A stretch of 64,000 nt of DNA from Thiosulfatihalobacter marinus (lineage in GTDB: Bacteria; Pseudomonadota; Alphaproteobacteria; Rhodobacterales; Rhodobacteraceae). The stretch lies in the NCBI RefSeq assembly GCF_016019955.1, contig NZ_JAECRZ010000007.1, positions 1 through 64,000 on the forward strand, read 5' to 3'. The position numbers and the translations under genes are program-made. Positions 43,170 through 47,397 of this stretch are shown in pieces (within the stretch, counting starts at the first letter, position 1; the number at the start of each line of letters is the position of its first letter). The notes under the pieces are model-generated. The model had not been told where the DNA came from. It ran no database searches and worked only from the letters and a program-made list of their open reading frames with translations.

Positions 43170-43949
43170 TCATGCCGCGAGATCGACCCAGACAGGCACG
43201 TGGTCGGATGGCCTGGTTTCGCCGCGCACGTGCTTGTCGATCTGGCAATCGCGCAACAGATCGGCACATTGCGGGCTGAGCAGAAAGTGATCGATGCGTA
43301 TCCCGTCATCGCGGTTCCACGCCCCGGCCTGATAATCCCAGAACGAATAATGGCCCGCGCCAGCGGTACAGGTGCGAAAGGCTTCGGTCATGCCGAGATA
43401 GAGCAGACGGCGGAATGCGGCGCGGCTTTGGGGGAGGGCCAGCGCATCCTCGCGCCAGGCTTCCGGACGCGCGGCGTCTTCGTCCTGGGGGATGACGTTG
43501 TAATCTCCGGCCATCAGAAACGGCTCTTCCGACGCCAGCAAAACGCGCGCCCGATCGATCAGCCGTTCCATCCAGGCGAGCTTGTAGTCGTATTTTGGTC
43601 CTGGTGTCGGGTTGCCGTTGGGCAGGTACAGGCCACATACCCGAACTGGCACATCGCCCATCACGGTGGCTTCGACATAGCGGGCCTGTTCATCGCTGTC
43701 GTCGCCCGGCAGGCCACGGCGGATGTCCTCCAGCGGCAATTTTGACAGTATGGCCACGCCGTTAAAACTTTTCTGGCCGTGGGTTTCGACGATGTAGCCG
43801 CGATCCTCGAACAGGGCGCGCGGGAATGACGCGTCGACGGATTTGATCTCTTGTAGCAGAGCCACGTCGGGCTGAGCCTCGTCCAGCCACCGCGGCAGCG
43901 CCTCGGCCCGGGCCTTGATGCCGTTGATATTGAATGTCGCGACCTTCAT
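43170..43949 (-). CDS. xth: exodeoxyribonuclease III
   Basis: A 259-residue AP endonuclease/3'-exonuclease for base-excision repair. Active-site residues of the family are at Asn8 (FNING), Glu34 (LLQEIKS), Asp149 and Asn151 (GDYNVIP), and Asp249-His250 (PSDHVP). Length agrees with exonuclease III (about 265). The start MKVATFNINGIKAR is the conserved family beginning; GGGG lies about nine bases upstream. It converges on the monooxygenase and is divergent from the repeat-protein gene across a 390-bp gap. xthA is the other symbol used. Confidence 0.95.
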   Translation of the reverse strand: MKVATFNINGIKARAEALPRWLDEAQPDVALLQEIKSVDASFPRALFEDRGYIVETHGQKSFNGVAILSKLPLEDIRRGLPGDDSDEQARYVEATVMGDVPVRVCGLYLPNGNPTPGPKYDYKLAWMERLIDRARVLLASEEPFLMAGDYNVIPQDEDAARPEAWREDALALPQSRAAFRRLLYLGMTEAFRTCTAGAGHYSFWDYQAGAWNRDDGIRIDHFLLSPQCADLLRDCQIDKHVRGETRPSDHVPVWVDLAA

Positions 43950-44339
43950 GAGACAGCCCCCTTGCGCCTGGTTCTCGGGAACTATCCACCGGAAACTGGG
44001 GTTCTGCAAGGGACGTATCCGGGCATTTCAGCGAGCGATATGCCGGGGAATCACGCGCTGCACGGGCCGGGAATCGTGGGGCGTGGCGGGTGTGATTCTC
44101 TGTGTGGCGACGGTGCGCGACATGCGGCCAAAGTGCGATTGTGGTGAAAATGAGGCGTGAATGAGGCGAAAATATTGCGGACCCGTTGAGTCACAAAAAG
44201 CAATATAAAACAAGTTTTTAAGGATTGATATTGAAGTGATTATGATTGTTGCGAACTCGCTAAGCGAGAAAAAATTGTTTGAAAAACCCGGAATGAGTGC
44301 AAGCGTGAAGAGGTCGAAACTTCAACTGGGAATTCAAAA
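43950..44339. promoter_or_regulatory. 390-bp upstream region of the repeat-protein gene
   Basis: This gap holds no gene I can support. Its last 180 bases are clearly AT-richer than the rest of the window (for example the stretches AAAAAGCAATATAAAACAAG near 44195-44215 and GAGAAAAAATTG near 44265), which fits a promoter or recently acquired DNA. A small CTCGC/GCGAG hairpin lies near 44257. No sigma-70 or sigma-54 motif is convincing by eye. Confidence 0.45.
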
Positions 44340-44987
44340 ATGCTCGCCAAAAAATCCATCGAAAACGTTAACGAAACCTTTGCACAGCGTACGCCGGGCA
44401 ACACCCACCTCAGCCCGTTTGACGGAGAGGCCACCGGAATGTTCACTTCGGGACTGACGGCCGAGATGACGGGCGATGCCATGTCGGGCGATGACACCGC
44501 GCTTTTCACCAGTGGCCTGGTGCAGATGTTCACCAGCGGATTGGCCCCGCGTGCAACGGCCGATGCAACCGCCGGCGAAGGGCTTGAAATGTTCACGAGC
44601 GGTCTGTCCGCAGCGGGCCAATCGGCGGAAGCCGGTGACGCGGTGGAGATGTTCACCAGCGGTCTGGTTCAGATGTTCACAAGCGGGTTGGCCGCCGAAG
44701 GCTCGTCTGCCGAAGCCGGAGATGCGGTGGAAATGTTCACCAGCGGGCTTGTGCAGATGTACACCAGCGGTCTGGCCCCGACGCAAACCGCCCAAGCCAC
44801 TGCCGGCGAGGGGCTTGAAATGTTTACCAGTGGTCTGGCGGCCGAGGGGTCTTCTGCCGAAGCCGGAGATGCGGTGGAAATGTTCACAAGTGGCCTGGTG
44901 CAGATGTTCACCAGCGGGCTGGCCCCGCGCGGTGAAGCCCGCGCCGAAGCCGGTGAAGGCGCCGAGCTTTTCACGTCGGGTCTGTGA
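44340..44987 (+). CDS. repeat protein with twelve [M/L][F/Y]TSGL motifs
   Basis: A 215-residue acidic protein with no family I can name. After about 33 residues of N-terminal sequence with the only Lys residues, [M/L][F/Y]TSGL occurs at residues 34, 55, 63, 84, 104, 112, 132, 140, 161, 181, 189 and 210. The copies at 55/63, 104/112, 132/140 and 181/189 are doublets joined by VQ. Spacers such as AEAGDAVE and TAGEGLE are rich in Ala, Gly and Glu. The last six residues are LFTSGL. There is no Cys or Trp, and no signal peptide or membrane span. The ribosome site is weak (GGGA about ten bases upstream). A partner gene and an exporter follow. Confidence 0.85.
   Translation: MLAKKSIENVNETFAQRTPGNTHLSPFDGEATGMFTSGLTAEMTGDAMSGDDTALFTSGLVQMFTSGLAPRATADATAGEGLEMFTSGLSAAGQSAEAGDAVEMFTSGLVQMFTSGLAAEGSSAEAGDAVEMFTSGLVQMYTSGLAPTQTAQATAGEGLEMFTSGLAAEGSSAEAGDAVEMFTSGLVQMFTSGLAPRGEARAEAGEGAELFTSGL
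44439..44987 (+). repeat. coding tandem repeats of 49-codon super-units
   Basis: The repeats are visible in DNA. Doublets start 49 codons (147 bp) apart at residues 55 and 104 and again at 132 and 181, and the last single motif is 49 codons after the one at 161. A 35-base run (44706-44740) recurs without change at 44853-44887, exactly 147 bp later. The 28-codon step between 104 and 132 looks like a super-unit that lost 21 codons. Such identity points to recent duplication or recombination. Confidence 0.85.
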
Positions 44988-45046
44988 TCCGTTGACTGGG
45001 GACCGGGGCGCGGTTGCGCGCCTCTGACAAGGTGAGGAGAAATCCG

Positions 45047-46123
45047 ATGTCGAATGTCGTGCAACTGATCGTCCCGTCCCAGCGGCAAACCCCTGCTGAG
45101 CGCCATGGCGCGCTCATGCAGAGCTTTGCCCGGCATCGCCGCTTTGGCGACGATGTGTTCTGGCTGAAGGAAAACGCCGAACTGCTCAATATCCTTGAGT
45201 GCACGGGTGCGGATGTGGATGGGTCCTCATTGGGTGCCTATGCGGATTTCTACGAAAATGTGGAAAAGCGCCTTCAGTTCTTCCCGCAATACTATCGCTT
45301 CCTGCTGTCGATCTGCCTGGATCTCGAAGATCTGGGACTGGGTGGCGACAAGGGCGCGCGGCTGTCTGAATGGGTCGCGGCGCAAGGGTTTGCCAAGGCG
45401 GAGCTTTCCGACCTGCAACGTCTGGAAGCGCGCCGCCTGATGTTGCGGCGCGGGGTTGAACCGCTGCCCGAGGATGAAACCCTTGAAACACGGATGCGTG
45501 CCTTTATGGGGCGGTCGGCCACGTTTTCGATGCCCAACAAGAAGGCAGCCTATGAGCTGACCCATGCGGTGTTCTATCTTTCGGAATATGGCAGGCGTGA
45601 CCCCCATCTGGGGTGTGAAGTGAAAAAATCTTTGGAATTCATTGGGTTGCTGGCCTTTCTTGAACAGAATGCCGATTTGCTGGCCGAAGTTTGTGTGGCG
45701 ATGCGACATAGCGGGATGCCGGTTCCGGAAATGTGGGACACCTGGCTGCTGCGCCATACCGCGCTGTTTGACGTGGAATGTGGCGACCGTGTTGCGCAAC
45801 AGGATGATTATCACGAATTCCTGGTCTGCAACTGGGCCATGGCGGCGGCTGGGAAAGCGCCGTTCAACAAGGCGTTCGAGGCCGGGCGCATGGGGTTCTT
45901 CCGCCCCGAAGCGATTGGCGGGCCGCTGCGCGAGCTGTCGGAAATCATGTATCGGCTGGACGACAATCGCAGCGGCGACTGGGGCGCGATGCGGCCGGTC
46001 GTGTTGGACGGGTTGAGCCCGGATGCCCAGGTCATCATGGCATGTGCCGAAAAATCCACCGACGTTTTCGAAGAATTCTTTGAGGGATTTGCACGCGCCA
46101 ACGCGATGGCGGGGGCAATGTGA
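45047..46123 (+). CDS. uncharacterised protein downstream of the repeat protein
   Basis: A 358-residue protein, probably all-helical and cytoplasmic, without signal or membrane segments. I do not recognise a named domain. Visible features are WLKENAELLNILECTGADV near residues 36-54, a run FYENVEKRLQFFPQYYRFLLS, and YELTHAVFYLSEYGRRDPHLG in the middle (about 167-187), with LLRHTALFDVE later. The TH..FY....GR pattern recalls helical proteins beside peptide-tailoring genes in actinobacteria, but this is only an impression. GAGGAGA precedes the ATG by six bases. The repeat-protein stop is 59 bases upstream, and the stop overlaps the EamA start by one base (TGATG). Confidence 0.75.
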   Translation: MSNVVQLIVPSQRQTPAERHGALMQSFARHRRFGDDVFWLKENAELLNILECTGADVDGSSLGAYADFYENVEKRLQFFPQYYRFLLSICLDLEDLGLGGDKGARLSEWVAAQGFAKAELSDLQRLEARRLMLRRGVEPLPEDETLETRMRAFMGRSATFSMPNKKAAYELTHAVFYLSEYGRRDPHLGCEVKKSLEFIGLLAFLEQNADLLAEVCVAMRHSGMPVPEMWDTWLLRHTALFDVECGDRVAQQDDYHEFLVCNWAMAAAGKAPFNKAFEAGRMGFFRPEAIGGPLRELSEIMYRLDDNRSGDWGAMRPVVLDGLSPDAQVIMACAEKSTDVFEEFFEGFARANAMAGAM

Positions 46124-47073
46124 TGGGGCTGCACCGTCCGGCATTGATGGGCACTGGCCTTGTGCTTTTGTACACGCTGATGATTTCTTCGGCTGATGCG
46201 ATCACCAAGCTGATCGCGTCCGGGTATGCCGCGCCGCAGCTTTTTGCGGTGTCGGGTTTCCTTGTTGTTGCGCTTAGCTTGGGATCGGCGCGCCTAAAGG
46301 GGCGGGGGCAAAGCCTGAAAACCGCCTGTCCGCGTGCGATGGCGCTGCGATCCTTTCTGACGGTGATTGGATCTGTTGCGTTTTTCTACGCGTTCCGGCT
46401 GCTGCCGCTGGCCGAAGTTTTTGTGTTCATCGCCCTGATGCCCCTATTCGCAGGGCTTTTGTCCGGCCCGATCCTGCGAGAACATGTCCGGCCCATGGCC
46501 TGGGCTGCATTGGCGGCGGGGTTTGTGGGCATGTTGTATCTGTTCCCGGGCGGGTTGGGCGCTGTGACGGCCGGACATCTTGTGGCGCTGTTTGCCAGCC
46601 TGTGCGGAACCCTGTCTCTTGTTCTTGCGCGCTATATCGGACGGATTGAAACCAATTCGCTGGCGCAGGTCTTTTATCCCAATCTTGCCCTGGCGGCGAC
46701 TATGTTGCTGGCCTTGCCGTTTGTCTACACGCCGATGCCGCTTGCCGATCTGGGATGGGTTGCGGCCTATGGCGTGCTGTTGTTCGCCGCACGCTGGCTG
46801 TCGGTTGTCGCGCTGCGCCTGTTGTCGGCCTATTCGGTGACGCCGCTGATGAACCTGCAATTTGTCTGGATGGTTGTACTGGGGGCGCTGTTCTTTGGTG
46901 AGGTGCCGGGGTTGAACATCTATCTGGGTACAGCCATCGTGATTGGATCCGGCGTGTTTCTTGTCTATGACCAGATGCAACCGGAGGGTATGCCATACCC
47001 GTGGTTGCTGCGCCTGAAAACGCGTTTTTTGCGGCTCAAAGTTGCAAGAACTTTGGTGCGTAACGAATTGTGA
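46123..47073 (+). CDS. EamA/DMT-family transporter linked to the repeat protein
   Basis: A 316-residue permease with about ten helices in two EamA repeats (ALRSFLTVIGSVAFFYAFRLLPLAEVFVFI; then VVALRLLSAYSVTPLMNLQFVWM, quoted in part). DMT transporters of this class usually export small molecules. ATG 46123 overlaps the stop of the preceding gene (TGATG), so both are probably made together. This suggests that its cargo is related to the unknown upstream gene and perhaps to the repeat protein. A 10-helix EamA would normally not carry a 20-kDa protein, so a cleaved peptide or small product fits better. The stop abuts the erpA stop with no gap. Confidence 0.88.
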   Translation: MGLHRPALMGTGLVLLYTLMISSADAITKLIASGYAAPQLFAVSGFLVVALSLGSARLKGRGQSLKTACPRAMALRSFLTVIGSVAFFYAFRLLPLAEVFVFIALMPLFAGLLSGPILREHVRPMAWAALAAGFVGMLYLFPGGLGAVTAGHLVALFASLCGTLSLVLARYIGRIETNSLAQVFYPNLALAATMLLALPFVYTPMPLADLGWVAAYGVLLFAARWLSVVALRLLSAYSVTPLMNLQFVWMVVLGALFFGEVPGLNIYLGTAIVIGSGVFLVYDQMQPEGMPYPWLLRLKTRFLRLKVARTLVRNEL

Positions 47074-47397
47074 TTACATTGAAAAACTCGTTCCACAGCC
47101 GCAGGAGCTTGTGGCGTTGGGATTGTCGATGACAAAGCGAGCGCCGATCAGTTCTTCGGTGAAATCAATCGTGGCATTTTGCAGAAACGGCAGGGAAACC
47201 GAATCCACCAGCACCTTTTCGCCACCCTTTTCCAGCACCAGATCGTCATCGCGCGGTGCATCCAGCCGGATCTCGTACTGAAACCCCGAACATCCCCCGC
47301 CTTCGACTGCGATGCGCAGGGCCTGCCCCTGAGCGGCGGCGCCAATCTCGGCCAGACGGGCAAAAGCCCGCTCCGTAACCTTTGGAGGCAGTTGCAT
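47074..47397 (-). CDS. erpA: iron-sulfur cluster assembly/insertion protein (A-type carrier)
   Basis: A 107-residue A-type Fe-S carrier that delivers clusters to apo-enzymes. The three cluster Cys are present: GGGCSGFQY and SSCGCGTSFSM at the C-terminal end. Length and the start MQLPPKVTERAFARLAEIG agree with ErpA/IscA. The precise subtype (ErpA or IscA) is an inference. It is divergent from dgt and converges, without a gap, on the EamA exporter. Confidence 0.9.
   Translation of the reverse strand: MQLPPKVTERAFARLAEIGAAAQGQALRIAVEGGGCSGFQYEIRLDAPRDDDLVLEKGGEKVLVDSVSLPFLQNATIDFTEELIGARFVIDNPNATSSCGCGTSFSM

Follow-up and report, generated by a model that had tools for sequence, protein, structure and literature searches.

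A repeat-protein gene paired with a DUF6902 gene in Thiosulfatihalobacter marinus and its relatives: a probable multi-core peptide system

Results

The three genes and the core array

We analysed a stretch of 64,000 nucleotides from Thiosulfatihalobacter marinus (contig NZ_JAECRZ010000007.1, positions 1 to 64,000), which we call the window. Three genes follow one another on its + strand: a gene for a repeat protein of 215 residues (44340..44987), proposed here to be the precursor of a short peptide; a DUF6902 gene (PF21843) encoding 358 residues (45047..46123), the proposed precursor-modifying enzyme; and a gene for an EamA/DMT-family exporter of 316 residues (46123..47073), whose PF00892 match scores 61.6 bits against a cut-off of 28.2. 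A preliminary description, made from the sequence alone, had placed the three genes on one strand, with a gap of 59 bases between the repeat gene and the DUF6902 gene, a good ribosome-binding site ahead of the latter (AGGTGAGGAG at 45030..45039, + strand, recognised by its sequence) and a TGATG overlap between the stop of DUF6902 and the start of EamA (46121-46125); all of this is borne out. With such a spacing, transcription of the three genes as one unit is plausible.

The repeat gene contains an array of 12 core pentapeptides (44442..44984, + strand), 11 of which read FTSGL and one YTSGL, the final core being the C-terminus of the precursor. Eight cores stand behind a G[DE]xxx[ML] motif and four behind VQM. 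The string TSGL, present 12 times, occurs on average 0.02 times and at most twice in 2000 shuffles of the protein's own residues. Over the 79 arrays described below, the residue preceding the core (position -1) varies between M, L and A, and the product is therefore probably the pentapeptide itself. For the repeat protein, all Pfam and NCBIfam matches lie below cut-off and none is meaningful. In relatives, the precursors carry up to about 20 cores per protein. The closest named relatives by DUF6902 are Shimia; a further member of the window's own genus has a DUF6902 only 49% identical and the core FSSGL four times, against FTSGL in the window.

The precursor and DUF6902 occur together

We followed the pairing of the two genes through 198 genomes of the family, of which 55 carry DUF6902 and 143 do not. 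A profile built from 20 repeat proteins (that of the window and those of 19 loci; cut-off E<=0.001) matches 50 of the 198 genomes, and all 50 are among the 55 carriers. In every one of them the match adjoins DUF6902, as found by comparing coordinates by hand; two have an extra match on a different contig. The profile matched none of the 143 genomes that lack DUF6902. Homologs of the repeat protein without DUF6902, which we had looked for, were thus not found in the 198 family genomes.

The five carriers that the profile does not match are instructive. Three have a precursor with another core (YIAGL, MMCCS and [FY]TTSC, each present twice), and a fourth (G139) matches only at a contig edge. In the fifth (L113, G039:C23), a divergent DUF6902 lies between xth and erpA without any repeat open reading frame (ORF), and the alignment shows other residues at both of the otherwise conserved histidines. 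This is as expected for a gene losing its role together with its substrate, and the gene is probably a decaying remnant.

We also assembled 80 named loci with DUF6902 relatives, setting aside one (L104) at a contig edge with too little upstream DNA. A repeat ORF lies upstream of DUF6902 in 79/79 assessable loci, among which we counted L065, where the array ends 342 bases upstream of DUF6902. Two extra family loci (L140 and L141) have STSSF and FTSWS arrays. Hence, that precursor and partner form one system, as the preliminary description had supposed, is strongly supported: the repeat gene is never found without DUF6902 in the 198 genomes and the two are paired in all 79 named loci. An encoded precursor beside a partner gene, the pair being conserved, is what one expects of a ribosomally synthesized and post-translationally modified peptide (RiPP); the partner would then modify the precursor.

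The cores of an array change together

Core statistics were computed on 79 arrays containing 671 cores (the window included, L065 and L104 left out). A narrower core pattern missed unusual cores; a wider one also picked up matches by chance in 8 arrays, and these lower the uniformity measured. At core positions 1-4, identity is 95-98% within arrays and 44-82% between arrays; the first core residue is 90% identical within and 87% between. Within arrays, identity is 23-35% at spacer positions and 42-60% at the motif residues that immediately precede the core; 605 of the 671 cores have a G six residues ahead of them. Fully uniform arrays number 53 out of 79, and the mean majority fraction is 0.934, to be compared with 0.393 when cores are shuffled among arrays. 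Of the 26 others, 8 are non-uniform only by chance pattern matches, 15 at the first residue only, and 3 are truly mixed. Two Ruegeria arrays (L108:4396-4941 and L109:4338-4937) begin and end with FSSGS and have FSTSC in between, as though one core were giving way to another from the middle.

Between loci the core has changed often. Among the 79 arrays there are 18 majority core types, and when mapped on the tree of DUF6902, a quick one with many weak branches, the core has changed at least 24 times. Different cores were found in 18 of the 48 pairs of loci whose DUF6902 proteins are at least 80% identical (the pairs are non-independent, L093 and L090 recurring among them). The case is clearest for the sister loci L049 and L054, in which the DUF6902 DNA is 90.7% identical and the core is FSSGS in 6/6 units of the former and FTSGS in 7/7 units of the latter. 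The second and last units have clearly orthologous flanks; at their switched codon L049 reads TCG and TCT where L054 reads ACG and ACT, so that only the first base differs. At the first unit, TCC in L049 faces ACG in L054, a difference that extends to the third base. Within L054, the inner units share one and the same DNA sequence. From these codons and these identical units we concluded that point change and unit duplication both take part.

Could the uniformity of the cores be a mere homogenisation, by unequal crossing over, of the DNA of a neutral repeat? Some neighbouring units are indeed identical in DNA, as just seen in L054, and the alpha-factor repeats of yeast are consistent with concerted evolution, according to PMC5850478. 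However, where two cores have a residue in common, its codon is the same in 45% of pairs within arrays and in 34% between arrays; since codons scatter in this way, DNA copying does not explain the uniformity of the cores. The spacers, moreover, differ within arrays, and the second and last units of L049 and L054 (not the first) keep the third base of the switched codon. We therefore hold this explanation to be very unlikely indeed. Judging from these sequences, the lock-step change of the cores speaks for selection on the exact peptide.

The genomic site and a second home

The block lies between xth (43170..43949, - strand) and erpA (47074..47397, - strand), two conserved neighbours which stand outside the system. 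This placement, already given in the preliminary description, is confirmed, the same genes being found at the same place across the family: xth is upstream in 73 and erpA downstream in 69 of the 74 DUF6902 loci with enough flank. To see the empty site, we examined 20 fairly complete genomes among the 143 of the family that have no DUF6902. There, xth and erpA are neighbours on one strand in 17 genomes and on separate contigs in 3; the intervals, read by hand from match coordinates, range from 29 to 2066 bases. Ten are shorter than 650 bases and could not hold the block. Neither DUF6902 nor EamA is encoded in the eight longest, seven of which contain other long ORFs. In three loci without the system (L156, L157 and L159), the interval has a different single gene, with ORFs containing FGERNTGTRA. 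Variable genes may have a hotspot here.

A second home was found in a genus of another proteobacterial class, where 3 of 4 genomes carry DUF6902, each followed by an EamA gene whose product is 62% or more identical to that of L149. At L149, Pfam confirms both DUF6902 and EamA, which overlap by stop and start as in the window, and neither xth nor erpA lies within the 12 kb of this locus. Upstream, L149 and L172 encode a protein of 76 or 78 residues with three [FLY]GCY cores behind GxGxEL; L171 is cut there. In the fourth genome DUF6902 has no match, and the best match to EamA is 24% identical (the precursor was not searched for in it). The loci of this genus mean that the three genes occur as a unit away from the xth-erpA site.

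These short precursors bear on another idea, in which the repeat protein would have a structural or surface role and DUF6902 would assist it as chaperone or in secretion. Proteins of that kind commonly have tandem repeats in varying number. Against this, the repeat protein of the other class has no more than 76 or 78 residues, with three copies; the pentapeptide is locked while the spacers vary freely; the array ends exactly at a counted core in 71 of 79 cases and at a variant core in one more; and the window precursor is predicted to be unstructured (mean pLDDT, the predicted local distance difference test score, of 40.8, a weak indication as the alignment was shallow, with 20 rows). We consider a structural role quite unlikely.

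The exporter is linked to the system but dispensable

We looked for an EamA neighbour with tblastn at 1e-6 in the 78 named loci where this could be assessed. The EamA gene directly follows DUF6902 in 61 of them; of the 17 remaining loci, 13 are named Marivita. In 12 genomes without the exporter, 8 of them from these 17 loci and 4 from elsewhere, the identity of the best match to EamA is 24-33%, whereas the EamA genes neighbouring DUF6902 show 51% identity or more; the exporter has therefore probably been lost rather than moved. The preliminary description had taken precursor, partner and exporter as the minimum set for a secreted peptide-derived product, and had asked whether they appear and disappear together between xth and erpA. 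This is partly borne out: precursor and DUF6902 go together, but the exporter is absent from 17 loci.

These same losses, without a close replacement in the 12 genomes, would suit the view that precursor and DUF6902 are the system and that EamA is a separate passenger which happens to follow. We find this unlikely because the stop/start overlap is present in the window and at L149, because EamA accompanies DUF6902 in all three DUF6902-bearing genomes of the other class while the fourth has no DUF6902 and a best EamA match of 24%, and because no lone EamA was found in the eight longest xth-erpA intervals of the 20 genomes without DUF6902. Since it travels with DUF6902 in a genus of another class too, EamA is linked to the system but dispensable; the three genes are the usual set and not the minimum set.

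The DUF6902 protein and its possible reaction

The window protein matches PF21843 with 542.8 bits (cut-off 27, E 3.9e-163) and, over residues 28-238, DUF6895 (PF21836) with 94 bits (cut-off 23.8, E 1.4e-26). Comparison of the two profiles gives a probability of 94.9% and E 4.2e-8 over 134 columns. The DUF6895 proteins compared are 15-20% identical to the window protein, and the motifs THxxFY and YH are common to both families. In an alignment of 12 sequences including DUF6895, H173, F176, D210, E214, Y255 and H256 are nearly invariant; H173, Y255 and H256 are invariant in 81/81 DUF6902 sequences. The two invariant histidines would suit an acid-base pair. A likeness of number to the MNIO enzymes (DUF692, multinuclear non-heme iron-dependent oxidative enzymes) is coincidental: at E<=1, Pfam gives only DUF6902 and DUF6895, and NCBIfam nothing.

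The model of the protein is nearly all helical (pLDDT 90.7, predicted template modelling score 0.89). In structural comparison with VIA-align, alpha/alpha toroids come on top, with Z of 12.1 and below and many ties; a class II diterpene cyclase, for instance, tied with others, gives Z 12.1 and a root-mean-square deviation of 4.0 over 228 aligned residues. With these ties, and with no significant match from Foldseek, the assignment of the modelled fold to the alpha/alpha toroids is tentative. Among solved structures, no sequence relative was found (best E 0.42). N-acyl-glucosamine 2-epimerase, which works by a two-histidine mechanism, and the lasso epimerase MslH are not among the 50 VIA matches listed, an absence which proves nothing.

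The side chains of the cores change freely, which makes a backbone-centred modification probable. As YIAGL, FVSGL, FPSGS and IMSAS share no fixed reactive side chain, the simplest guess is that one residue is epimerised to the D form, and the distant kinship with DUF6895 and the two invariant histidines point to epimerisation as well. We put it forward tentatively, at a little under even odds.

DUF6902 might instead belong to a multi-core RiPP system in which it macrocyclises, cross-links, dehydrates or cleaves the precursor, or only binds and presents it. Proteins with toroid-like helical folds carry out many different reactions: in the comparison, terpene cyclases, farnesyltransferase, complement domains and glycoside hydrolases are tied or close. 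Most cores are rich in Ser or Thr, and some contain Cys. Yet the chemistry of the core is not conserved (FVSGL, IMSAS, FPSGS, MMCCS and YIAGL, the last without Ser, Thr or Cys), which makes a reaction on a fixed side chain of this kind unlikely, and a relative from DUF6895 is reported as an epimerase, as far as a title tells. To these other actions we leave a minor, though appreciable, chance.

That title is the one of Shi et al. 2026, listed in the references of PMC13352647, which names a DUF6895 family epimerase in lasso peptide modification. It is a lead for epimerisation by DUF6902 and not a test of it.

Precursor-like ORFs beside DUF6895 genes

The neighbourhoods of DUF6895 genes were read with G274, G285, G739 and G901 (below cut-off) and G557 left out. 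Six strong places in other taxa (77.7 to 271.7 bits), namely L136, L137, L138, Kitasatospora (L143), Streptomyces (L153) and Pseudalkalibacillus (L155), all adjoin a small precursor-like ORF. These six ORFs have a similar, helical-looking leader (such as SGLxxxxxTxxQL), with a doubled core in two of them. A search of plasmids with the window protein gave two weak matches, one of which leads to the Kitasatospora DUF6895 pair. It is possible that the DUF6895 genes and their leader ORFs form a second, undescribed RiPP family.

ORFs beside DUF6895 genes have aromatic tails, for example GPWFVL and DWTFISHNYVYKG. The plasmid-collection loci L143, L153 and L155, together with the related L154, which has no DUF6895 domain, lie no more than about 5-6 kb from polyketide or ketoacyl synthase genes.

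The upstream region

The preliminary description had the block preceded by AT-rich DNA, and the 190 bases before it (44150..44339, + strand), a probable promoter and leader region, have indeed a guanine plus cytosine content of 38.4%, against 61.2% for the window; a value as low is reached in 0.09% of 190-base windows. Matching across loci revealed a conserved element there, GCGAGAAAAA..TTTGnAAAACnCG..GTGCAAGCGTGAAG (44264..44310, + strand). The best upstream match to CGTGCAAGCGTGAAG has at most 3 mismatches in 39/79 loci and in 1/79 after shuffling; a few of the matches sit far upstream, in other contexts. The form GCGAGAAAAA..TTTGnAAAACnCG..CGTGCAAGCGTnAAG stands ahead of the precursor gene in many relatives, across genera. 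This element may be a promoter or an operator. A scan with the sigma-70 consensus gave no + strand site in 44150..44339, the promoter/terminator scan gave fewer sites than in shuffles, and the single Rfam match at E<=1 was far under its gathering score.

Discussion

We favour, with a probability of about 0.6, the reading that precursor and DUF6902 are the heart of an undescribed multi-core RiPP system making a short modified pentapeptide. The repeat protein would be an unfolded precursor with many short cores (here FTSGL), and G[DE]xxx[ML], plainly present before most of them, would serve as recognition motif. DUF6902 would grip these motifs and modify the core behind each, turning one of its residues to the D form; an unlinked protease would then free the pentapeptide, and the EamA protein would export it, lineages without EamA using another route. 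A product of about 500 Da would suit a small-molecule exporter better than a peptide exporter of the ABC (ATP-binding cassette) type. As the cores match within a genome and differ between species, the product might, speculatively, act as a species-specific signal or competition molecule.

Several points weigh against this reading. The system is known here from its genes, and epimerisation, cleavage, export and function are all deduced from them. Two core types are mixed in L057, L108 and L109 among the 79 arrays, and also in L119 and L120, and 15 further arrays vary, at the first core residue only. The block contains no protease gene, and 17 of the 78 loci are without the exporter. A VIA Z of 12 lies within the background quoted for helical proteins, and Foldseek with the DUF6902 model gave no match at E<=0.001. 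The weaker DUF6895 matches (L139, L150, L151 and L152; 35-47 bits) have no evident precursor, L139 having been read on one strand with one pattern, and an activity of DUF6895 need not carry over to DUF6902.

How does the proposed system compare with known ones? Many-core RiPPs are already known. Microviridin enzymes are ATP-grasp proteins. In microviridin precursors, too, one ribosomal product contains several cores, which are modified while still part of it (PMC5934393); cores of the window type differ in being five residues long, up to about 20 in number and mostly endowed with a motif of their own, and the enzyme is unrelated by Pfam. The yeast alpha-factor precursor MF-alpha-1 (PMC5850478) is similarly a polyprotein of repeated, near-identical peptides in variable copy number; the window system differs in being bacterial, with a dedicated DUF6902, a shorter peptide and no known secretory processing, and that the two work alike is a guess. 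With MslH, the epimerase of the lasso peptide MS-271, DUF6902 would share the kind of step, a post-translational epimerisation by a single enzyme; MslH is metal-dependent according to PMC10406935, whereas the window protein matches only DUF6902 and DUF6895 in Pfam at E<=1.

The DUF6895 lasso-peptide epimerase named in the title of Shi et al. 2026 is of the same remote superfamily, with the THxxFY and YH motifs and with genes of its family beside precursor-like ORFs. It differs in that the window precursor is a pentapeptide array and its block is without lasso machinery; the published protein itself was not compared. As a lasso peptide cluster the block was rejected, for want of the B and C genes: by Pfam and NCBIfam, none of the three genes between xth and erpA is a leader protease (B) or an asparagine-synthetase-like cyclase (C), the rest of the genome not having been searched. 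In our literature search, which left most subscription papers outside its scope, DUF6902 occurs in no paper and DUF6895 in one, and no title or abstract beginning among those listed describes such a multi-core family; the core-peptide strings led mostly to skin-graft papers. The DUF6902 system may possibly be a new RiPP class. We are doubtful of the full picture in which marine Rhodobacteraceae make epimerised pentapeptide pheromones, cut from a many-copy polyprotein like yeast alpha-factor, with one five-residue word per species whose copies are all rewritten in lock-step, as a new class of ribosomal peptides.

If the favoured reading is true, a substrate and a probable reaction can be assigned to DUF6902, and a widespread group of marine bacteria makes a peptide that has gone unrecognised, is cheap to test for and can be predicted in sequence from each genome. 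A system of two or three genes could offer a minimal means of introducing D residues into short peptides. Finally, the coordinated change of the core copies would mean that selection acts on the exact product, and it may point the way to a receptor or target that has to recognise one word.

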